NCBI RefSeq assembly: GCF_041415945.1
Contig: NZ_JBGCUS010000006.1
Coordinates: 1-15,650 of the forward strand
Direction: 5' to 3'
DNA from: Ancylobacter sp. IITR112
GTDB taxonomy: Bacteria > Pseudomonadota > Alphaproteobacteria > Rhizobiales > Xanthobacteraceae
DNA length: 15,650 bases
A program made the position numbers and the translations under genes. Numbering within the stretch: position 1 is the first letter of the stretch; the number at the start of each line of letters is the position of its first letter. This document shows positions 1 to 15,650 of this stretch, piece after piece. The notes under the pieces were generated by a model, which did not search any database, had not been told where the DNA came from, and saw only the letters and a list, made by a program, of their open reading frames with translations.

Positions 1-125
1 CTCTTTCGCCTCGGCGTCGGAATCTCCACGGCCGGCCGCTCGTCCTCGATCGCTGCAAGGCTGGTGACTTCCGCGCCAGCTTTCGGGCGGGTGAAGGCCG
101 CAAGGCCGGTTGCTTTCTTTGCCAT
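1..125 (-). CDS. ParG-like partition protein, N-terminal part (gene split by the window ends)
   Basis: The ATG at 125-123 has a strong ribosome binding site (AAGGAG, about 7 nt upstream) and lies 36 bp downstream of the parA stop. These 41 codons encode a basic start (MAKKATG) and a Pro/Glu-rich, probably disordered tail ending in RRK, then run off the left edge. If the window is circular, the two leftover bases plus base 15650 complete an Arg codon and the frame continues without a stop into the RHH domain at the right end, giving 98 aa. ParG of plasmid TP228 has the same plan: a flexible basic N-terminal tail that acts on ParF, followed by a DNA-binding RHH fold. Position directly after a small ParA supports the role. 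Circularity is inferred; partner function comes from family knowledge and context. Confidence 0.72.
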   Translation of the reverse strand, partial: MAKKATGLAAFTRPKAGAEVTSLAAIEDERPAVEIPTPRRK

Positions 126-142
126 AGGTTCCGCTCCTTAGA

Positions 143-182
143 TACGCGCTTACGTATTTAGCTATTTACGCTCTAACGTGTC
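143..182. repeat. 8-bp repeat array between parA and the parG-like gene (5 units)
   Basis: Five consecutive 8-bp units with a tetramer box at every eighth base: boxes ACGC, ACGT, AGCT, ACGC, ACGT, each followed by a 4-bp spacer. Unit 2 (151-158) is TACGTATT, which recurs in two other arrays. The array covers the last codons and stop of parA and ends just before the ribosome binding site of the parG-like gene. Tandem 8-bp phasing fits RHH dimers binding side by side. Seen directly; the binding role is inference. Confidence 0.75.
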
Positions 183-785
183 CTTGATCCATGTCCACAA
201 AGCCCGAATTTCCTCCGCTGCCTTCCCCTCGGCCTCGAACTCCGTCACGGCGCTGCCGGTCGTGACAGCGCGGGCGAACGCGCGCCGGTCGGTGATCTCG
301 CCGGGAACGATCGGCAGGCCGTAGGCTTCCAGCGCCGCGCGCGTCTCTCCGATCTCCGGCGCACGGAACGGGCAGGCGGACAGGACGAACGCCCCGCGCA
401 CCTTCGCCGCCGTCACGATCTCGACAGCGGCCGGGACCGCAGCGAGGTCAAACGCGGACGGTCGAACCGGAATCAAGACCAGCTCCGACCTACGGGCGAT
501 CTGGCCGGCCGCCGGGGCGGCATGGGGCGGGGCGTCCACCACGGCCAAGGTGATGCCCTCACCCTCGGCCGCTCTAAGCGCCGCGTCCAGCTCGCCGGCC
601 TGCGCCGTGGCGACGATCGGCGTTCCGGCTTCCCGCGCGCTCGCCCATGCGGTCGCGCTCTCCTGCGGGTCCGCATCAATGACGCAAACCCGTTCGCCGG
701 TCGCCTCGGCCGCCACGGCGGTATGAACCGAAAGCGTGGTTTTTCCGCTCCCGCCCTTCTGGCTCAAAAACGCAATGACGTTCAT
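162..785 (-). CDS. parA: ParA-family partition ATPase (ParF type, class Ib)
   Basis: A 207-aa Walker-type ATPase that would move plasmid copies apart on the nucleoid. Residues 10-16 form the deviant Walker A motif KGGSGKT with its signature lysine. DADPQ follows at 37-41 and VDAPP (Walker B-like) at 83-87. The short length and the absence of an N-terminal helix-turn-helix place it in class Ib with ParF, whose partner is an RHH ParG rather than a ParB. The ATG at 785 is preceded by AAGGA about 7 nt upstream, inside an 8-bp repeat array, so autoregulation by the partner is likely. The ParG-like gene follows in the same direction. Family assignment is secure; the partner and operator are inferred from context. 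Confidence 0.93.
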   Translation of the reverse strand: MNVIAFLSQKGGSGKTTLSVHTAVAAEATGERVCVIDADPQESATAWASAREAGTPIVATAQAGELDAALRAAEGEGITLAVVDAPPHAAPAAGQIARRSELVLIPVRPSAFDLAAVPAAVEIVTAAKVRGAFVLSACPFRAPEIGETRAALEAYGLPIVPGEITDRRAFARAVTTGSAVTEFEAEGKAAEEIRALWTWIKDTLERK

Positions 786-856
786 GCGTCAATCCTTCTT
801 TGCGTGAATACGTATTAAAGCACATAGCTAGGGACGTTACTACGTCGTTAAGCTAG
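785..856. repeat. 8-bp repeat array in the parA promoter/leader (about 7 of 9 units recognisable)
   Basis: From the parA start codon to the parE stop codon the sequence falls into nine 8-bp registers. Good units are TGCGTCAA (785-792), TGCGTGAA (801-808), TACGTATT (809-816), GACGTTAC (833-840) and TACGTCGT (841-848). Units 825-832 and 849-856 carry AGCT or a shifted AGCT instead of ACGT, and two registers (793-800, 817-824) are degenerate. The array covers the whole parE-parA gap, including the parA promoter and ribosome binding site. It resembles the operator/centromere arrays of parFG systems, where tetramer boxes alternate with 4-bp spacers. Repeats are seen; function is inferred. Confidence 0.8.
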
Positions 857-1158
857 TGCGGCCATTCCTCGGGCTGCCAGTCCCGCGACGTGTGGATGAC
901 GCGCACGATCACGACACTTTCCCGGCCCTCCACGTCGCGCAACTCATAAGCGATGATGTAGGGAAGCCGGGCGAGGGACTTTTCATAGGTTCCGCTCACC
1001 CGTCCCGGCCGCCCGGTCGCCATCTCGCCTAGCTTGTTCCCAGCGTCCTCGATCGCGTCCACGACCCGCTCGGCGGCGAATGGGTTGTCCTCTGCGATGT
1101 AGCGCAAGATTTCGAGGTTATCCCGCTGCGCCTCAATCGACCAGACAACCGGCCTCAT
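853..1158 (-). CDS. parE: ParE/RelE-superfamily toxin
   Basis: A 101-aa protein of the ParE/RelE toxin fold. The N-terminal helical part (MRPVVWSIEAQRDNLEILRY) matches the family's opening, with a helix pair, a central R-x-G region, then a beta core reading LPYIIAYEL and VVIVRVIHTSRDW. The conserved ending R-V-I-H-x-x-R-x-W is typical of ParE-type gyrase poisons. Its start overlaps the parD stop by 4 bp (ATGA at 1158-1155), so it is translationally coupled to its antitoxin. Role: addiction module killing plasmid-free cells. ParE (gyrase) and RelE (ribosome) branches are hard to separate by eye; the ParD-type antitoxin favours ParE. Confidence 0.9.
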   Translation of the reverse strand: MRPVVWSIEAQRDNLEILRYIAEDNPFAAERVVDAIEDAGNKLGEMATGRPGRVSGTYEKSLARLPYIIAYELRDVEGRESVVIVRVIHTSRDWQPEEWPH

Positions 1159-1424
1159 CCGCGCGCGGCTTTCCGGCGCTTCGCTTCCTCGATAACCTCA
1201 CGCATTTCCGCGACGGCCTGCGCGTGGGGGATCACGCGGCCGGCCGCTGCGTCGGCCATGCCGCGCTTGATGCCGTCGATGATTTCAAGCTCGCGATCGA
1301 CGTAGGCGGCGACGGCCTCGCCGGCGAGGAAAGATTTGCTCCGCCGCGTATCGTTCGCGATCCGGTCGAGTTTTTCTTTCACATCGGGCCGAACCCGAAT
1401 CGTCATGGTGGTGCTGGCGGTCAT
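1155..1424 (-). CDS. parD: ParD-like RHH antitoxin
   Basis: An 89-aa antitoxin. Residues 5-45 form an RHH domain: beta strand around TMTIRVRPDVKEKL, then two helices through SKSFLAGEAVAAYVDRE. The C-terminal helical tail (MADAAAGRVIPHAQAVAEM onward) is the part that binds toxin. The reading frame stays open upstream to 1535, but the start at 1424 has GGAGG 7 nt upstream and leaves the canonical N-terminus, so it is preferred. A palindrome GTGTACAC at 1451-1458 just upstream is a candidate ParD operator. An 8-bp repeat array lies further upstream at 1501-1532. Confidence 0.88.
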   Translation of the reverse strand: MTASTTMTIRVRPDVKEKLDRIANDTRRSKSFLAGEAVAAYVDRELEIIDGIKRGMADAAAGRVIPHAQAVAEMREVIEEAKRRKAARG

Positions 1425-1450
1425 GGAATCGCCTCCGATCGTGTTGAATC

Positions 1451-1458
1451 GTGTACAC
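1451..1458. promoter_or_regulatory. Palindrome upstream of parD, possible ParD operator
   Basis: GTGTACAC is a perfect 8-bp palindrome 27 bp before the parD start codon, and the flanking TCGTGT element is repeated 10 bp away. RHH antitoxins normally repress their own operon through short palindromes in this position. The site is seen; the function is inferred from location only. Confidence 0.35.
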
Positions 1459-1500
1459 CCTAGCACGTTTTCCCGGCCACTGCCATCGCCTTCTAAGAAA

Positions 1501-1532
1501 TACGAATACACGTCAATACGTATTAACGTAAG
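1501..1532. repeat. 8-bp repeat array upstream of parDE (4 units)
   Basis: Four contiguous units: TACGAATA, then CACGTCAA, then TACGTATT, then AACGTAAG, with the CG step at exactly 8-bp intervals. The third unit is identical to units in the arrays at 143-182 and 785-856. The array ends about 77 bp upstream of the parD start, in promoter position for parDE. This suggests the partition RHH protein could also bind here. Confidence 0.72.
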
Positions 1533-1632
1533 CAACTAAGCGCCAGCCTTGCCCCTCGCTCCCTCTCGAAAGCCCATAGGACGGTTGCCGCAAGCGCAAG
1601 CGTTGCGGTTTAGGTGGTGAGGGTGCCGCTTG

Positions 1633-1684
1633 CCGGCCCGCCTATACGCGGGCCGGAACCGCCGCAGGGCTGCGAAAGCAGCCC
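1633..1684. terminator. Two strong hairpins downstream of repA
   Basis: Two perfect inverted repeats follow the repA stop on the minus strand. The first has 9-bp arms CCGGCCCGC (1633-1641) and GCGGGCCGG (1648-1656) with a 6-nt loop. The second has 7-bp arms GGGCTGC (1667-1673) and GCAGCCC (1678-1684) with a GAAA tetraloop. Neither has a long T tract, so efficient intrinsic termination is uncertain. The 1536-1700 stretch otherwise has no gene and may contain origin sequence. Confidence 0.45.
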
Positions 1685-1700
1685 GAACAGCGGCGACCGT

Positions 1701-2579
1701 TTATGTTTGCCCTCTTAGATAAAGATCAGATGGGGATTCAGTCTGGTTATCGGACTCACGTTTCATCAACGATCTAGCCATCTGCGCGAGGCTGCGCCCA
1801 AGCCGATTGTCGCCCACGTCGAGCAAGGTTCGCTCATCGAGGGGCAGAGCCTCCCTGTAGGCCGCGATTACCTCGCTCCAAGCCCTCTGATCCTGTCCAT
1901 GATCCGCAGGCGGGGGCGGGGTCTTGCCGAACCGCCCAAGGAACTGCCGGGCCTTCTCCGGCAGGGACAGGCGGTAGGCGTTGCTCGTCTGCTGGACCTG
2001 TGGGCCGCGCCCCTCGTTGCCGGTCGGCTCGTAGCGCCGCAGCCAGTCGATGAAACCATGCGCCCGCAGGTTCTTCAGCGCCCGCACGATCGTATCGCGC
2101 GACCGGCCGAGCCGATCCATGATCGTGGTGATTGACGGCTCTAGCCGGCCGGTGCGGAAGTCGATGAGATTGACGAACAGCCGCAGCACGTCCAGCGCCA
2201 CCGATCCTAGCGGGCCGCTGCGCTCGCCCTTCTCGTGCAAGCCGGCCTCGTTGTAGATTTCGGCCGCCTTCAAGATCGCCTGAACGTCCTTGCGTGTCGT
2301 CGGCCGCCATATCCGGCCCTCCGATCGGCCCCGGATATGACTATGCCGGCGAACTGGCGTCGGGCATCGCTCGGCGGGGGGGGGCAGGACCAGGCTAAAG
2401 GTTCCCTGTCCTGATCCCCGCAGGGCGTCCCGGCGCTCATGGGCGAGCGTCGTAAGCTCCCCGGCCTCGTCGTCGGTGAACTCGCCCTTGCCGTAGCGGG
2501 TCCAAACCTCCCGCATGATTTCATCAAGCGCGTTCCCGCGCGCGCAGCCGATCGCGGCCGCGTAGTGCGTCCTCAACAT
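1701..2579 (-). CDS. Winged-helix plasmid replication protein (RepA-like)
   Basis: About 292 aa from the ATG at 2579, chosen because AAGGA and GAGGG lie just upstream. The frame is open to a TTG at 2654, but that start has no ribosome binding site. Residues roughly 125-207 form a winged helix-turn-helix: a helix through VALDVLRLFVNLID, a recognition segment SITTIMDRLGRSRDTIVRALKNL, then a basic wing ending in SNAYRLSLP. This layout is found in plasmid replication proteins of alphaproteobacteria annotated as replication protein A. Being the only rep-like gene on an apparently complete plasmid supports the role. A run of nine G (2376-2384) lies in the N-terminal coding part. A plain HTH regulator is the alternative. 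Confidence 0.66.
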   Translation of the reverse strand: MLRTHYAAAIGCARGNALDEIMREVWTRYGKGEFTDDEAGELTTLAHERRDALRGSGQGTFSLVLPPPAERCPTPVRRHSHIRGRSEGRIWRPTTRKDVQAILKAAEIYNEAGLHEKGERSGPLGSVALDVLRLFVNLIDFRTGRLEPSITTIMDRLGRSRDTIVRALKNLRAHGFIDWLRRYEPTGNEGRGPQVQQTSNAYRLSLPEKARQFLGRFGKTPPPPADHGQDQRAWSEVIAAYREALPLDERTLLDVGDNRLGRSLAQMARSLMKRESDNQTESPSDLYLRGQT

Positions 2580-2642
2580 ATGCCCTCGTCCTTCCATTTG
2601 AAGGACATGACAGCGCGGACGGCAGGCACGGCTCCCCATTTC

Positions 2643-2661
2643 CGCAAGAATCAATCTTGCG
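2643..2661. promoter_or_regulatory. Perfect inverted repeat upstream of repA
   Basis: CGCAAGA (2643-2649) and TCTTGCG (2655-2661) form 7-bp arms around a 5-bp spacer, 64 bp before the preferred repA start. It could be an operator for RepA or for the upstream CopG-like regulator, or part of the origin. No T run follows, so a terminator is unlikely. Confidence 0.4.
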
Positions 2662-2732
2662 AATTGGAGTGCTGTAGCGTAGATAAGGGGAGAGCTTTGG
2701 CCCCGTCTCTACGGTGTGTCTGACGGCCTACA

Positions 2733-2766
2733 AAAACGCTCGACCGCGCCAACGGTCGGGCGTTTT
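2733..2766. terminator. Bidirectional intrinsic terminator between copG-like gene and repA
   Basis: A 14-bp stem with arms 2733-2746 and 2753-2766, one G-T type mismatch and a 6-nt loop. The stem begins with AAAA and ends with TTTT, so it is U-tailed in both directions. It starts 4 bp past the stop of the CopG-like gene. It should end that transcript, so repA probably has its own promoter between 2580 and 2732. Confidence 0.8.
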
Positions 2767-2770
2767 GCCG

Positions 2771-2980
2771 TTATGTCCCTTGCTTCGCTTCGATATAGAA
2801 CCTCAACGCTTCCTCGATGATCGGCGCGCGCGATGACGCGCCCCGTTCTTCCTTGATCCGGTCAAGTCGCGCGACCAGCTCAACGGGAAGATCGGTGTTT
2901 ACGAAGGTGCGGCCAGCCTCTCGCAACCGTTGTCGGTGCGCGGCCACGTCCCTCCGAATCCTATCAGAATCGCTTTTCAT
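2771..2980 (-). CDS. CopG-like RHH regulator
   Basis: A 69-aa protein from the ATG at 2980. Residues 28-66 carry an RHH motif: strand RTFVNTDLP, helix VELVARLDRIKEERG, helix SRAPIIEEALRFYIEA. A GTG at 3046 would add 22 residues that look unlike the family, so the shorter form is preferred, although its ribosome binding site is weak. A small RHH gene directly before rep is the usual place for a copy-number repressor (CopG family). A terminator separates it from repA, so it could instead control itself or another gene. Confidence 0.68.
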   Translation of the reverse strand: MKSDSDRIRRDVAAHRQRLREAGRTFVNTDLPVELVARLDRIKEERGASSRAPIIEEALRFYIEAKQGT

Positions 2981-3067
2981 CGTTACTAGAAAGACCCGAA
3001 ACCGCCCGATTCTGCAACCCTTTGCGTAAGGGGGCGAGAAAGGCACTACTTCTAGGGCCGGGGACTA

Positions 3068-3107
3068 AACGTAGTTGCGTCAATGCGTATTCACGTCATT
3101 GCGTTCT
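3068..3107. repeat. 8-bp repeat array at the resolvase 3' end / upstream of copG (5 units)
   Basis: Five perfectly phased units: AACGTAGT, TGCGTCAA, TGCGTATT, CACGTCAT and TGCGTTCT. The core is CGT in every unit at 8-bp steps. TGCGTCAA also occurs in the parA array. The repeats overlap the last codons and stop of the resolvase gene and lie 88 bp upstream of the copG-like start. This is the most regular array in the window. Confidence 0.78.
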
Positions 3108-3682
3108 ATAGCCCGGTAGAGCGTGGCGCGATGCACCCCTAAAAGCCGGGCGATTTCCGCCACCGGCGTCTTGTCCTCATGGATGAGCTGGCGGGCGTGG
3201 GCGATCTGCTCGACCGATAGGGCAGGGGAAGGACCAAACCGCACACCTCGGGCCTTCGCCGCAACCCGGCCGGCGCTGGTGCGCTCCACGATCAAGCTGC
3301 GCTCGAAATCCGCGATGCCGGCGAACACGGTCAACACCATGCGCCCCGCCGGCGTCGTGGTATCAGCCCACGGCTCGGCCAGCGAGCGCAGGCCAGCGCC
3401 GGCGTCCTTGATCCGCTCCGCGATTGCCAGAAGGTCGCCGGTCGATCGGGCGAGACGGTCTAGCCTAGTGATCGTCACCACGTCGCCGGCGCGCAAATGG
3501 TCGAGCATCCGCGCCAGCTCGGGCCGGTCCCGCTTCGCTCCGGAAGCCTTTTCCTCGAAGATGCGGACGCAGCCGGCCGCGCCCAGGGCGGCACGCTGCG
3601 CATCGAGGTCCTGGCCGCGAGTCGAAACGCGGGCATAGCCGATGAACACGCGGCCGGCGTCGGAATCTGGTTGGCGGTTCAC
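3080..3682 (-). CDS. Serine resolvase/invertase (plasmid multimer resolution)
   Basis: A 200-aa small serine recombinase. The N-terminal catalytic domain begins FIGYARVST, with the nucleophile Ser at about residue 20 and GQDLDAQ following. The catalytic arginines sit in TRLDRLARS, and the E-helix GIADFERSLIVERTSAG leads to a C-terminal helix-turn-helix (PVAEIARLLGVHRATLYRAI). The frame is open to 3853, but a GTG at 3682 with AGGGGG upstream gives the canonical length and start, so it is preferred. A cluster of inverted TGTCGCAA motifs directly upstream is its probable res site. With no transposase gene of Tn3 type nearby, the likely role is resolving plasmid dimers. Confidence 0.9.
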   Translation of the reverse strand: MNRQPDSDAGRVFIGYARVSTRGQDLDAQRAALGAAGCVRIFEEKASGAKRDRPELARMLDHLRAGDVVTITRLDRLARSTGDLLAIAERIKDAGAGLRSLAEPWADTTTPAGRMVLTVFAGIADFERSLIVERTSAGRVAAKARGVRFGPSPALSVEQIAHARQLIHEDKTPVAEIARLLGVHRATLYRAIERNDVNTH

Positions 3683-3692
3683 GGTTTCCCCC

Positions 3693-3806
3693 TGTCGCAA
3701 ATCATGTCGCAAGTTTTCTACCACTTGCGACAAAGACATGCGACACGAAAACCCCTTATTTTCCGCGGTTGGCCGATCTGTTGCAGGTTTTACGACTTGC
3801 GCGACA
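3693..3806. other. Probable res site of the serine resolvase
   Basis: Repeated half-sites lie just upstream of the resolvase gene: TGTCGCAA at 3693-3700, TGTCGCAAG at 3705-3713, the inverse CTTGCGACA at 3724-3732, and TGCGACA at 3739-3745. A second element at 3779-3806 begins TGTTGCA and ends TTGCGCGACA. The pairs 3705-3732 and 3779-3806 are each exactly 28 bp with inverted ends, the usual size of a resolvase dimer site (site I of Tn3-type res). The motif and placement are seen; crossover activity is inferred. Confidence 0.65.
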
Positions 3807-3826
3807 AGGCTATGAGGTGACGGGAT

Positions 3827-3852
3827 TGTATAGCGTCGCTTGACACTATACA
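3827..3852. promoter_or_regulatory. Inverted repeat in the resolvase-higBA divergent region
   Basis: TGTATAG (3827-3833) and CTATACA (3846-3852) are perfect 7-bp inverted arms with a 12-bp spacer. The right arm contains a TATACA element suitable as a -10 box for higB, starting about 23 bp before its ATG. HigA-type antitoxins repress their own promoters through such palindromes. Operator function is inferred. Confidence 0.45.
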
Positions 3853-3874
3853 TTTAGCCTGATAGCGACGGCAC

Positions 3875-4165
3875 ATGAGAATCCGAAACGTGGTCCATAA
3901 GGGGTTGCGCCGATTCATCGAAGATGATGACGCCACCGGCTTGCAGGCGGCCGTAGTGCCGAAAGTCCGTCGCATCGTCACCTTCCTGCAAGATATGGAG
4001 CGGGAGGAAGAGCTGCGCACGGTCCCGAGCTGGAAGGCCCATCAGCTCACCGGCGATCGAAAAGGCACCTGGAGCCTGTTCGTCACCAAGAACTGGCGGA
4101 TCACGTTCCGGATCGACCAAACCGAAATCGAGATCATCGACCTCGACTATGAAGATTACCACTAG
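3875..4165 (+). CDS. higB: HigB toxin (RelE-superfamily mRNA interferase)
   Basis: A 96-aa protein with the HigB pattern: N-terminal VHKGLRRFIEDDD, a central helix VPKVRRIVTFLQDM, then the conserved core WKAHQLTGDRKGTWSLFVTKNWRITFRI and the closing IDLDYEDYH. The core and final Y-x-D-Y-H are hallmarks of HigB, a ribosome-dependent RNase. Toxin-first order with the XRE antitoxin 9 bp downstream is also typical of higBA. The ribosome binding site is weak. Its stop codon overlaps the antitoxin's Shine-Dalgarno sequence, suggesting coupled translation. Confidence 0.93.
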   Translation: MRIRNVVHKGLRRFIEDDDATGLQAAVVPKVRRIVTFLQDMEREEELRTVPSWKAHQLTGDRKGTWSLFVTKNWRITFRIDQTEIEIIDLDYEDYH

Positions 4166-4174
4166 GAGGTGGCT

Positions 4175-4507
4175 ATGAGTGCGATGCAGGGCATCCGTAT
4201 GAAAAACCCCGCCCATCCCGGCGGCTTCGTCAAAAGTGAGATCATCGAGCCTCTTGGCCTTTCGGTCACGAGCGCCGCGCAAGTTCTAGGTGTTACGAGG
4301 GCGGCATTGTCGGCCGTGCTGAACGAGCGCGCGCATCTTTCGCCAGAAATGGCGCTCCGGGTCGAAAAGGCTTTCGGCGTGTCGATGGATACGCTCATGC
4401 GGATGCAGAACAGCTACGACATTGCCCAGGCCCGCAAGCGGGAAGGGGAGATCAACGTCGCGCCATTCAAGGGAAAGCCGCTCGATCCGCAAGCGGCGCT
4501 GATCTGA
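4175..4507 (+). CDS. higA: HigA antitoxin (XRE helix-turn-helix)
   Basis: A 110-aa antitoxin starting at the ATG at 4175, which has AGGAGG five nt upstream; a GTG at 4169 lies inside that ribosome binding site and is rejected. NPAHPGGFVKSEIIEPLGLS is the classic HigA/VapI opening, followed by an XRE-type HTH (SAAQVLGVTRAALSAVLNERAHLSPEMALRVEKAFG). It neutralises HigB and represses the operon. The tail after about residue 80 is variable. It may also stabilise the neighbouring restriction-modification genes as part of the same addiction cluster (inference). Confidence 0.92.
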   Translation: MSAMQGIRMKNPAHPGGFVKSEIIEPLGLSVTSAAQVLGVTRAALSAVLNERAHLSPEMALRVEKAFGVSMDTLMRMQNSYDIAQARKREGEINVAPFKGKPLDPQAALI

Positions 4508-4561: not shown

Positions 4562-6073
4562 ATGAAGAGTTTGCTTGAACAGCTTCCGGCCATCGTAGCC
4601 GAAGGCAAGCGTGAAGCCGAGCGCGTCATGGAGCGGGCGGAGAGCAACTATCGCCTCGGCCTGCAAACAAGGGAATTGGTCATTCCCTCACGCGACAGCA
4701 ACTGGCAAGATTTCCTCAAGGTCGCAGACAAAAAGGAGCAGGCATCAACCATCGGAGAAAATCGTCTGATTTATGGCGACAATCTCTTGGCGATTGGATC
4801 ACTCCTGGCTGGTGGTGACGACTCGGCATCGGTGCGCGGAAAAGTAAATCTCATCTATATCGACCCGCCATATGATAGTAAGGCGGATTATCGACGTAAG
4901 GTAGAATTACCCGGCGCATCCATCGAACAGCTTCCGAACGTCATCGAGCAGTTTGCATATACTGATACATGGAGTGAAGGCACGGCGTCATATCTGCGGA
5001 TGATTACGCCTCGACTTTTCCTCATGAAAGAACTTCTTACTCACAACGGCAGCATCGTTGTTCATCTGGACTGGCACGTGTGCCATTATGTCCGCATGGT
5101 TCTTGATGAAATTTTCGGAAAAGCCAACTTTGTTAATGAGATAGTCTGGTATTACTACAACAAAATGCAAGGCAACGTGAACCACTTTGCCAAAAATCAT
5201 GATGTTCTACTGTGGTATCGGGCAGGCGATGAATACACCTTCAACAAAATACGGGAAGAGCGCGAAGCACCCGTTAAACAACTCAAGAGAGTATGGGACA
5301 AGGATAAGGGCAAGATCGTCAATGCGAAAGGCCCTGACGGCAAGGTAATCTACATCGAGTCCACCGAGCGGACACTTGATGACGTTTGGCGAATTTCGAT
5401 GTTGCAGCCTGCGGATCGGAAGGAGAACCTATTCTTTAACACCCAAAAGCCAGAAGCTTTAATCGAGCGAGTTATTACGGCCATTTCCAACGAAGGCGAT
5501 CTGGTCGCTGATTTCTTCATCGGCTCCGGCACGACCGCTGCCGTCGCGGAAAGGCTAGGTCGACGCTGGATTGCATCAGATTTCGGGAAGCCTGCGTGTA
5601 TGGTGACACGCAAACGCCTGATCGACCAGGACGCCAAGCCGTTCCTCTACCAGCACATTGGCGACTACCAAGTTGAGCAAATGCGCTCCACGATGGGCAG
5701 CCGGTTCCGCATCGGTGATCTGGCCGAAATCGTGCTCGGCCTCTACGGCGCGCTACCGCTGCCCGTCGAGGAAAATCCGAACAAGAACATGGGCAGGCTT
5801 CAGGGGAGCAAAACGCTCGTCCTCGCGGACAGCCCCAACAAAATGACCGGCCTCGCCACGCTGCGCCGTGCAATCGAAATCCGCGACAACCTCATGGGCG
5901 GGTGGGATAAGGTCGTTATCCTGGGGTGGAATTTCTCACCCACGATCGGCCATGACATTGAGGCACTGGGGCAGGGGGACCGGCTGGAAGTGCTCGTGAT
6001 CCCCCCCGATCTGCTCGACCGGCTGAAGAAGAAGGGGCACAAGCTCAAGGCAGATGAGGTGCGTTTCTCGTGA
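4562..6073 (+). CDS. mod: Type III restriction-modification methyltransferase (Mod), 3'-truncated by an IS
   Basis: 503 aa of a beta-class N6-adenine methyltransferase. The catalytic motif IV DPPY is at 101-104 and the SAM-binding motif I, DFFIGSGTT, at 317-325; this order (IV before I) defines the beta class of Type III Mod proteins. The start has GGGGG about 8 nt upstream. The last codons read DEVRFS and then hit TGA, which is also the first three bases of the IS end. In full-length relatives the chain continues after this point, so the C-terminal part is missing. The catalytic core is intact but the truncation probably weakens folding or Res binding. The central part (about 4680-5560) is visibly more AT-rich than the flanks. 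Confidence 0.85.
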   Translation: MKSLLEQLPAIVAEGKREAERVMERAESNYRLGLQTRELVIPSRDSNWQDFLKVADKKEQASTIGENRLIYGDNLLAIGSLLAGGDDSASVRGKVNLIYIDPPYDSKADYRRKVELPGASIEQLPNVIEQFAYTDTWSEGTASYLRMITPRLFLMKELLTHNGSIVVHLDWHVCHYVRMVLDEIFGKANFVNEIVWYYYNKMQGNVNHFAKNHDVLLWYRAGDEYTFNKIREEREAPVKQLKRVWDKDKGKIVNAKGPDGKVIYIESTERTLDDVWRISMLQPADRKENLFFNTQKPEALIERVITAISNEGDLVADFFIGSGTTAAVAERLGRRWIASDFGKPACMVTRKRLIDQDAKPFLYQHIGDYQVEQMRSTMGSRFRIGDLAEIVLGLYGALPLPVEENPNKNMGRLQGSKTLVLADSPNKMTGLATLRRAIEIRDNLMGGWDKVVILGWNFSPTIGHDIEALGQGDRLEVLVIPPDLLDRLKKKGHKLKADEVRFS

Positions 6074-6096
6074 CGTTGCCCCCTGAATGCCCTCGT

Positions 6097-6918
6097 TCAT
6101 AACCAGAATCCGTTCTGGTTGTGGTCCTGCCTGGACCGGGCTGCGAACTCGTTTGGGGTAAGGCCGCCGAGGCTCGTGTGAGGCCGGTGGCCGTTGTAGT
6201 CGATCCGCCAAGCTTCGATGATCCGACGTGCCATCGGCAAGCCCTGGAACAGGTGCTCGTTCAGACATTCGTCGCGGAAGCGGCCGTTCAGGCTCTCGAC
6301 GAAGGCGTTCTGAACCGGCTTGCCGGGAGCGATGTAGTGCCACTCGACACCTGTGTCCTGCTGCCAACGCAGGACCGCGTGCGAGGTCAGTTCGGTGCCG
6401 TTGTCGCTGACGACCATGAGCGGCTTGCCACGACGTTGGATGATGGCGTCCAGCTCCCGTACGACCCGGTGGCTCGACAGCGACGTGTCGGCCACGAGCG
6501 CCAGGCACTCCCGGGTGAAGTCGTCGACGATCACCAGCACGCGGAACCGGCGTCCGTCCGCGAGCACATCGGAGACGAAGTCCAGGCTCCATCGCTGGTT
6601 GGGTGCCTGCGGCAAGGTCATCGGCGCTCGCGTGCCAAGCGCTCGCTTGCGTCCGCCGCGACGGCGCACCGACAGCCGCTCCTCGCGGTAGAGCCTGAAG
6701 AGCTTCTTGTGGTTGATCTCCTTGCCCTCTCGCCGAAGCAGGATCAGCAGACGCCGATAGCCGAACCGCCGACGCAAGCTCGCCAGCTCACGAAGGCGCT
6801 GGCGGAGCGCGGTATCGTCGCCTCGCGTCGAGGCGTAGCGATAGGTCTTCGGCTCGATGCCGATGAGGCCGCACGCACGCCGCTGCGAGTAGCCCTTCTC
6901 CTCGATCGCCCAGGTCAC
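6097..6918 (-). CDS. IS3-family transposase OrfB (DDE catalytic domain)
   Basis: 273 aa from a GTG at 6918; the natural product is probably an OrfA-OrfB fusion made by -1 frameshifting, with the OrfB frame open back to the slippery site at about 6954. An N-terminal HTH_21-like region ([19 protein letters not shown]) precedes the integrase core. Catalytic residues are D in WSLDFVSD, D in VVSDNGTE and E in [16 protein letters not shown], the D-D-35-E signature of rve transposases. The C-terminus [13 protein letters not shown] is typical of the IS407 group. No internal stop is present. Confidence 0.93.
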
Positions 6919-6941
6919 GACCTTCCTCCGGGAACTGGGCG

Positions 6942-7208
6942 TCAGAAGTTTTTTCCAAGAGCCTCGCGGAGAGTGGCTACGTCGAGCATCGACTCGGCCA
7001 GAAGCTTCTTCAGCTTCCGGTTTTCCTCCTCGAGCGCCTTAAGGTTGCGGGCGTCGGACACCTCCATCCCGCCGTACTTCGTGCGCCACGTGTAGAAGGT
7101 CGCGTCGCTGATCCCGTGCTTCCGGCAGAGGTCCACGACCGGGATTCCGGCCTGGTGCTCCTTCAGGATCCCGATGATCTGTTCCTCGCTGAACCGGCTC
7201 TTGCGCAT
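6942..7208 (-). CDS. IS3-family transposase OrfA (HTH and leucine zipper)
   Basis: 88 aa. Residues 1-45 form an HTH_8-type helix-turn-helix ([38 protein letters not shown]), and residues about 55-85 a leucine-zipper helix ([29 protein letters not shown]). The ATG at 7208 has AGGAGA six nt upstream. It binds the IS ends and supplies the N-terminus of the fused transposase. The last codons contain the A-AAA-AAC slip site that shifts ribosomes into OrfB. Confidence 0.93.
6948..6954 (-). other. Programmed -1 frameshift heptamer of the IS
   Basis: On the minus strand the sequence is A AAA AAC in the OrfA frame, just before the OrfA TGA. Slipping back one base reads AAA AAA and continues into OrfB ([11 protein letters not shown]). 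This is a classic X-XXY-YYZ slippery heptamer of the kind used by IS3 elements. Confidence 0.75.
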
Positions 7209-7269
7209 CGTCCGTCTCCTCTCGACGGATCCTAGCTTCTGAGCGGGGTCATTTCAGGGGGCAACGTCA

Positions 7270-7715
7270 CCTACCCCTCGCGGAACGGCGGCCTTGAACT
7301 GGCATTTATGGAAACCTGCGAGCGTGACGCCAGCGTTGAAGCCTTCTGCAAGATCAACGAGCAGAAACACACCTTCGCGCGCCTGCGATACATCAAGGAA
7401 GATGGGCTTCCGGCGTTCTACTCGCCCGACTTCTTCGTGAGAGCAGGCGGCGCGATTTATCTGGTGGAAACAAAGGCACAAGGCCAGCTCACCAGCCCGA
7501 ACGTGCTGCGCAAGCGCAGGGCCGCCGTTGCATGGTGCGACCGGATCAACGCCCTTCCTCCGGAACAGCGTAGCGATTCCGAATGGCACTATGTCCTTCT
7601 CGGGGAAGACACCTTCTATGGCTGGCGGGACAAGGGCGGCTCGATCGCTGATCTTCTCGCCTATGCACGGCTGCGCCCTGTCGAAGACAAAGGCCAGGCT
7701 AAGTTCGCCTTCTGA
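7270..7715 (+). pseudogene. res: C-terminal remnant of the Type III restriction subunit (Res nuclease domain)
   Basis: About 147 codons of res survive, beginning in frame at the IS edge with TYPSRNGGLELAF; an internal ATG at 7308 could start a 135-aa product. The fragment carries the PD-(D/E)xK-type nuclease motif: SPDFFVR followed by YLVETKA, preceded by FARLRYIKEDG. Conserved C-terminal elements include WCDRINALPPE and WHYVLLGEDTF. The helicase/ATPase part of Res, normally several hundred residues, is absent, so restriction cannot work. Loss of both the mod 3' end and the res 5' end at the IS points to an IS-associated deletion. Confidence 0.85.
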
Positions 7716-15448: not shown

Positions 15449-15488
15449 TACGGATTAAGCTATTTACGTATCCACGTATTAACGTGCG
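15449..15488. repeat. 8-bp repeat array at the 3' end of the parG-like gene (5 units)
   Basis: Units TACGGATT, AAGCTATT, TACGTATC, CACGTATT and AACGTGCG follow each other in strict 8-bp phase; the last overlaps the stop and final codon of the parG-like gene. On the circular map the parG-like gene is therefore bracketed by this array and the one at 143-182. An array outside the promoter region could be the true centromere rather than an operator (inference). Confidence 0.77.
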
Positions 15489-15650
15489 TAAGGCTCGATC
15501 GGCGGCAATCCATGTTGCGCCAGCACCGCCGACAGCCCGGCCTCGGCCATCGCCTGAATCGTCGTTCCCTCTGCATCCGCGAGCTGGCGAAGGCGTTGCC
15601 AGTCCGATCGCCGAACCTTGACCGTTAGCGCGACAGTCTCGCCCCCTCCC
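15479..15650 (-). CDS. ParG-like RHH partition protein, C-terminal part (gene split by the window ends)
   Basis: 56 codons and a stop (15481-15479), open at the right edge. The sequence begins GGGETVALTVKVRRSDWQRL: a beta strand VALTVKV, then helices SDWQRLRQLADAEG and TIQAMAEAGLSAVLAQHG, a complete RHH fold. It continues in frame the 41 codons that start at 125 if the two ends are joined. As in ParG, the RHH domain is C-terminal after a disordered tail. It should bind the adjacent 8-bp arrays as a dimer and stimulate the ParA ATPase. If the molecule is not circular this would be an unrelated RHH fragment, but an exact frame and fold match by chance is unlikely. Confidence 0.72.
   Translation of the reverse strand, partial: GGGETVALTVKVRRSDWQRLRQLADAEGTTIQAMAEAGLSAVLAQHGLPPIEPYAR

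Follow-up and report, generated by a model that had tools for sequence, protein, structure and literature searches.

What reads the short, regularly phased DNA repeats that recur at five places on a small plasmid of Ancylobacter sp. IITR112, and what function might they serve? The window analyzed here is the whole contig carrying them (contig C6 of its genome), 15,650 bp in length. A preliminary description had proposed a ParFG-type centromere spread over the maintenance region of the plasmid. As judged from sequence comparisons, the five arrays very probably serve the plasmid's own ParA-ParB partition system as centromere and operators, and a distributed, class-specific 8-bp centromere would be the best reading of the locus; the 98-amino-acid ParB, a putative ribbon-helix-helix (RHH) protein, is the most likely reader of the arrays.

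The arrays are built on tetramer boxes, namely ACGT, GCGT or AGCT, that recur at a strict 8-bp interval, and all five are present where they had first been described. Array A (15450..15489) has five 8-bp units, with boxes at 15450 (ACGG), 15458 (AGCT), and 15466, 15474 and 15482 (ACGT); it covers the end of parB and the gap to the convergent traG, and is not situated at a promoter. Array B (144..183), also of five units, lies in the interval from the parA end to the parB start, with boxes at 144 (ACGC), 152 (ACGT), 160 (AGCT), 168 (ACGC) and 176 (ACGT). Array C (770..857) covers the parA start and the gap upstream and is longer than the 785-856 first noted; a scan for runs of four or more boxes gives about 10 units from 770, of which eight contain a box and two are boxless. 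Array D (1501..1533) is upstream of the parDE toxin-antitoxin operon, between parD and rep, and comprises ACGA at 1502 and three exact ACGT boxes at 1510, 1518 and 1526. Upstream of copG-rep is array E (3068..3108), whose five units run into the end of the resolvase gene and have ACGT or GCGT at 3069, 3077, 3085, 3093 and 3101. Arrays C, D, and E are situated upstream of operons; A and B are not. Exact units do recur in different arrays, as had been reported: TACGTATT at 151, 809 and 1517, and TGCGTCAA at 785 and 3076.

Chance is ruled out as the origin of the arrays by the distances between boxes, together with tetramer ranking, and by profile scores against simulated windows. ACGT pairs in the window occur five times at distance 8, twice at 16, three times at 24, and also at 32, with none at a non-multiple of 8 over distances 5 to 40; ACGT ranks first among the 136 strand-collapsed tetramers for 8-bp phasing. 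For an out-of-sample test, an 8-bp profile was trained solely on arrays from two other plasmids, Zymomonas pZZ6.02 and Agrobacterium vitis pAvF25f. Its scores are 36.3 for D, 31.6 for B, 30.5 for A, 23.3 for E and 22.6 for C (11.3 for the coding edge of C), and the highest value reached by any of 1000 order-2 Markov windows is 11.0. Raw scores for periods 5 to 14, taken with no background correction, are uninformative because longer periods score higher. The run scan needs at least four exact boxes, so the window's array D, with three, goes unlisted; the profile and pattern scans find it. In nine plasmids with the window's ParB (the window, L003-L009 and L014; L numbers denote compared loci), runs of at least four boxes are found at site C in nine, at A and B in eight each, at E in seven and at D in six, the window's own D being among the misses. 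Within the 5-Mb genome, the three-box pattern ACGTN4RCGTN4RCGT matches solely on the plasmid (arrays A, D and E), which rules out array sites on the host chromosome; a control search with the pattern reversed gives 2 matches.

The boxes are conserved relative to their spacers. Substitutions were counted against the window in orthologous arrays, with 9-16 distinct rows per site and identical rows dropped, and the Fisher tests run on these counts carry no correction for relatedness. Over all sites, box bases (53/1223) are substituted nearly four times less often than spacer bases (184/1131), the count for flanking non-coding DNA being 441/4011. Box and spacer counts are 6/150 and 30/120 for array B, 14/560 and 86/509 for C, 15/200 and 32/200 for D, and 7/180 and 20/180 for E; array A, at 11/133 and 16/122, is the weakest site. 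The corresponding arrays of CATG boxes on related plasmids give 18/358 for boxes, 57/352 for spacers and 333/2713 for flanks, which here include coding DNA.

The identity of the box follows the identity of ParB. A tblastn search located the window's ParB in 32 of 72,556 plasmid records, and some of these plasmids were compared with others that share the rep backbone and encode a different ParA-ParB pair, by ranking all 136 strand-collapsed tetramers for 8-bp phasing in a uniform region around par. Ten Rep proteins from the compared plasmids are 64-90% identical to that of the window; for the ParA proteins of classes T2 to T5 (L074 left out), identities to the window's ParA or across classes are 24-41%. 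For class T1, defined by the window's ParB, ACGT is the top tetramer in 9/9 alphaproteobacterial plasmids (the window, L003-L009 and L073), and it is also top in both Zymomonas plasmids. CATG is top in all six plasmids of class T3 (L016, L017, L019, L023, L025 and L026), and TGCA in the single plasmid of class T4 (L022; 23 pairs vs 0.1 expected). For class T2 the top tetramer is ATTG in 5/5 (L015, L020, L021, L027 and L072), with GCAA second in four; these five rows have almost equal counts and are not independent. The box varies with ParB class on related backbones and the 8-bp step is constant, an observation that the preliminary description did not contain. Farther afield, ACGC ranks first and CGTC second in a Klebsiella relative (47% ParB), and GTCA first and ACGT second in a Thiothrix relative. 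A second ParA locus on an Ochrobactrum plasmid has no clear phased tetramer.

Genome sequences extend the comparison to more distant ParB proteins. A ParB match was found in 5/385 genomes of the class, two of them strong, the window's own included. In all, 38 genome loci with a ParB homologue were collected, many of the 97-100% loci being near copies and not independent; parA adjoins parB in 38/38. Close relatives with the same par genes were expected to keep the arrays, and they do so: ACGT is the top tetramer in 17 of the 18 loci whose ParB is at least 69% identical, and takes third place in the remaining one. At the Zymomonas AN0101 locus (ParB 67%), whose contig stops 628 bp before parB, ACGT ranks eighth. 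The period test was applied to 25 of the 38 loci (all 19 distant ones, L047, L052 and four others, with 20 simulations each); period 8 has a median z-score of 6.85 at ParB identities down to 35%, and the medians for periods 6, 7, 9, 10, 11 and 12 are 2.39, 0.04, 1.74, -0.08, 0.23 and 2.77. At L057, periods 8, 9 and 11 are tied. With the cut-off of the period test, 10/19 distant loci have arrays in two positions, one beyond parB and the other around or ahead of the parA start. In Nitrosomonas eutropha Nm57 (L063), perfect satellites at approximately 4230-4360 and 5290-5335 flank a parAB pair related to that of the window: immediately upstream of parA, a head-to-tail 8-bp ATGAAACC satellite with 15 exact copies, and after parB an 8-bp ATGCAACC satellite. 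As a separate observation, Zymomonas pZZ6.02 (L010) has three more ACGT arrays (1361-1408, 2621-2684 and 2910-2949) around a macro-domain gene, away from parAB.

Several results weigh against a class-specific centromere read by ParB, in addition to the redundancy of near-identical loci. Among the 19 distant loci (ParB 35-54%), ACGT is first in just 3 and second in 2, the top boxes often being GTCA, CGTC, ACGC or CATG, and at L058 period 6 stands above period 8. Class T5 (L024 and L074) shows no clear phased tetramer around par, and a whole-locus scan places ATTG at the top in just 2/4 T2 plasmids. A sigma-70 promoter scan of positions 1-3900 found no site, and the structure model of ParB is weak (predicted local distance difference test score 67), with RHH structural matches that are not significant. 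Site E is also at odds with the class rule. A run of five ACGT-type boxes is found there in all four T2 plasmids examined, out of five collected (at 10673-10712 in L015, from 486 in L018, and at the copG-resolvase gap in L021 and L072), the plasmids' own ParB differing, and Shinella p6 (L006), a carrier of T1 ParB, is without array E. In class T3, site E has 2-3 phased CATG boxes in 3/6 plasmids and an ACGT run in 0/6; such a CATG pair is weak evidence because one is also present in T4 L022 and T5 L074.

Module exchange giving hybrid backbones might explain the mismatched site E. Alternatively, the ACGT array at the T2 site may be no relic and may allow the plasmid to use the ParB of a co-resident ACGT-class plasmid. 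The five-box run kept in all four T2 plasmids argues for this, as does Rhizobium sp. X9, which carries ACGT-class and ATTG/GCAA-class plasmids together; against it, the four T2 sites are similar and may represent one lineage, their decay may be slowed by the overlapping 3' end of the resolvase gene, and co-residence was considered in two strains only. Borrowing of this kind is accordingly regarded as doubtful.

The preliminary description named the RHH partner as reader of arrays across several operons. The comparative data do point to ParB, the protein common to array carriers, through the plasmids on which other candidates are missing. The two Zymomonas plasmids with ACGT arrays have no parD, parE, copG or resolvase match (tblastn, 1e-3); what they share with the window in that search is parA together with a distant rep (35%). 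Matches to rep, toxin-antitoxin or copG are absent at this threshold from the Klebsiella and Thiothrix plasmids, which share with the window parA and a distant resolvase (49% and 29%). Plasmid L022 (T4) encodes a CopG identical to the window's and a 90% identical Rep; it has TGCA as its box and lacks an ACGT run upstream of copG. CopG is rejected as reader by L022 and by the two Zymomonas plasmids, Rep by L022 and by the Klebsiella and Thiothrix plasmids, and the antitoxin by the two Zymomonas plasmids. The elimination is valid only across the Zymomonas and Klebsiella/Thiothrix groups jointly; the shared distant rep and resolvase leave the odds for ParB unchanged because other plasmids exclude Rep and resolvase. 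That the ParD-like antitoxin, CopG or Rep reads the arrays would fit the adjacency of the antitoxin and CopG genes to arrays D and E, and the distant Rep of the Zymomonas plasmids, but given the absences just described and the TGCA box of L022 it is extremely improbable.

Two further explanations accept the arrays and assign them another role. They could be merely operators, for ParB or another regulator, with the true centromere being one array alone or lying elsewhere; RHH proteins are frequent repressors, and C, D and E are upstream of the first gene of three operons. Array A, in contrast, is between convergent genes and B is inside the par operon, box conservation is strong at B and mild at A, and arrays are seen again after parB among distant relatives, so that a purely operator role seems rather unlikely. 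The arrays could also be recombination borders, marking module ends through resolvase or homologous exchange, since homology to other plasmids often breaks at them (after D at 1537-1551, and at E at 3108). Exchange at such borders is, however, expected if arrays travel with parAB, the boxes differ between ParB classes, and ACGT arrays are present on the Zymomonas plasmids, where the window's resolvase has no match; recombination borders are therefore considered very unlikely.

The proteins of the proposed partition system are encoded next to arrays A, B, and C. The parA gene (162..785, minus strand) encodes a ParA family partition ATPase of 207 amino acids that scores above the cut-off of NCBIfam NF041546 and has a deviant Walker A motif, KGGSGKT, at its N terminus. 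It fits the type Ib criterion (approximately 200-250 amino acids, no N-terminal helix-turn-helix (HTH), deviant Walker A), as type Ib partition is defined in PMC9178275. The nearest solved structure is ParF of TP228 (4dzz, E 8e-20), in keeping with the ParF-type ATPase that had been proposed. The parB gene (minus strand) crosses the contig ends, the second part, with the putative RHH core, at 15479..15650 and the first part, a tail of low model confidence with an invariant K-x-x-G-L-x-A-F, at 1..125. ParB matches Pfam Antitox_RHH just below the cut-off and looks like an RHH protein. The ParFG-type partner proposed earlier did not find support: PDB sequence searches with ParB gave no RHH protein among the matches listed and no relation to ParG.

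A mechanism can be proposed in which ParB, as a small RHH protein, forms dimers that would each read one palindromic tetramer (ACGT or AGCT). Adjacent dimers would pack at 8-bp steps, forming a short dimer row on each array; the flexible ParB tail would engage ParA, and ParA would carry the plasmid across the nucleoid. Control of gene expression is a more tentative part of the proposal than binding, one dimer per box, and centromere function. Given the position of arrays C, D, and E ahead of parA, the toxin-antitoxin genes and copG-rep, ParB probably represses these three operons; if ParB does control the rep and toxin-antitoxin genes as well, segregation, copy number and addiction would be tied together under one switch.

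At a more general level, these plasmids may form a replicon family with an exchangeable centromere code: the 8-bp step would be fixed, each ParB class would read its own tetramer (ACGT, CATG, TGCA or GCAA/ATTG) in arrays at par, addiction and replication operons, and a ParAB swap would re-address the region and let plasmids with nearly the same Rep share a cell. This generalization is plausible, at somewhat less than even chances. Rhizobium sp. X9 carries p.4 (T1) and p.1 (T2) together (L004 and L072), with Rep proteins 89% and ParB proteins 26% identical. In Shinella XJ20, p4 (T1), p5 (T3) and p6 (T2 next to rep and, in addition, a T1 block) are co-resident (L017, L006 and L073), with Rep proteins 67-85% identical; any simple rule of compatibility is called into question by this second T1 block of p6. 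Four ParB classes with four readable boxes on related backbones amount to a natural replacement series, which opens to testing what makes an RHH protein select one tetramer over another, how a centromere can change its specificity and still function, and whether partition class sets compatibility.

One gene, parB, spans both contig ends, the left-edge frame continuing from the right edge as an intact frame of 98 amino acids, and the identical frame is uninterrupted in another genome (L034); the contig is therefore taken as a circular plasmid. The replicon label rep_cluster_1420 is attached to the three nearest annotated plasmids. In the gene row, parB and parA are followed by the genes for a ParE-like toxin and its antitoxin, by rep, by a gene for an RHH protein of CopG type, by a serine resolvase gene and then by a HigBA-like pair, with parA, parB, parDE and copG-rep transcribed leftward; comparison with annotated relatives identifies the other frames as a methyltransferase, transfer genes and a relaxase. 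On the minus strand are the parE-like toxin gene of the addiction module (853..1158, Pfam PF05016), the parD/RelB-like antitoxin gene (1155..1424, NCBIfam NF048017 below cut-off, without a Pfam match at 1e-3, and labelled a CopG family RHH protein in a relative), the gene for the HTH replication protein (1701..2654, annotated as replication protein A in a relative), the gene for a 69-amino-acid CopG-family RHH protein ahead of rep (2771..2980, Pfam PF01402) and the serine resolvase gene (3080..3853, Pfam PF00239), the 3' end of which is within array E. Positions 4562-7715 contain a methyltransferase frame, two transposase-like frames on the opposite strand and then what appears to be the separated end of a restriction gene, judged from frames only.

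Parallels to single features of this arrangement are found in several systems. MetJ binds as RHH dimers to tandem 8-bp met boxes, palindromes with an ACGT centre (AGACGTCT); it differs from the plasmid system in being a chromosomal metabolic repressor with no ParA partner. In the ParAB system of Agrobacterium pTAR, a small ParB binds repeats in a combined centromere-operator. Searches of the open-licence literature on MetJ and on pTAR with RHH returned no matching paper, and no title on these backbone plasmids was among the matches listed. RHH ParBs are described as binding repeat arrays statically (PMC13245405), and a Paracoccus plasmid has a type Ib module with three 13-bp repeats (PMC3832669); the excerpted account of pAMI2 mentions no centromere (PMC3925955). 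On Clostridium perfringens plasmids with closely related Rep proteins, several ParMRC partition families occur and DNA specificity separates the plasmids (PMC9426499); that system uses an actin-type ParM, whereas the plasmids considered here have a ParA-type system with a tetramer swap.

ParF of TP228 is the closest solved relative of the plasmid's ParA. The TP228 box is ACTC. In TP228 ParFGH, tetramer boxes are separated by AT-rich spacers and ParG also acts as a repressor (PMC7308502). The systems share, as far as that account extends, a small ParA, a putative RHH partner and tetramer boxes at regular spacing near par; unlike TP228, the present plasmid has a palindromic ACGT box and arrays at five places, including the toxin-antitoxin and rep operons. 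The spread over several operons, which had been put forward as undescribed, has a precedent in the arrays at several promoters of pSM19035, where six parS sites of 7-10 heptads are located at the copS, delta and omega promoters and at least 4 contiguous repeats are needed for full ParA activation (PMC9499535). With the delta-omega-parS system, as outlined there, the plasmid shares a putative RHH ParB, contiguous repeats, and arrays at several operons that include par and copy control. The pSM19035 repeat is a non-palindromic 7-bp WATCACW, compared with 8 bp and a palindromic ACGT here, and the present arrays also occur ahead of a toxin-antitoxin operon, while two of them (A and B) do not precede an operon. 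Set against the four-repeat need reported for pSM19035, array E has five boxes in a row, C is gapped, and D has three exact boxes plus ACGA. The nearest known arrangements are those of TP228 ParFGH, for its tetramer boxes, and of pSM19035, for its arrays at several promoters.

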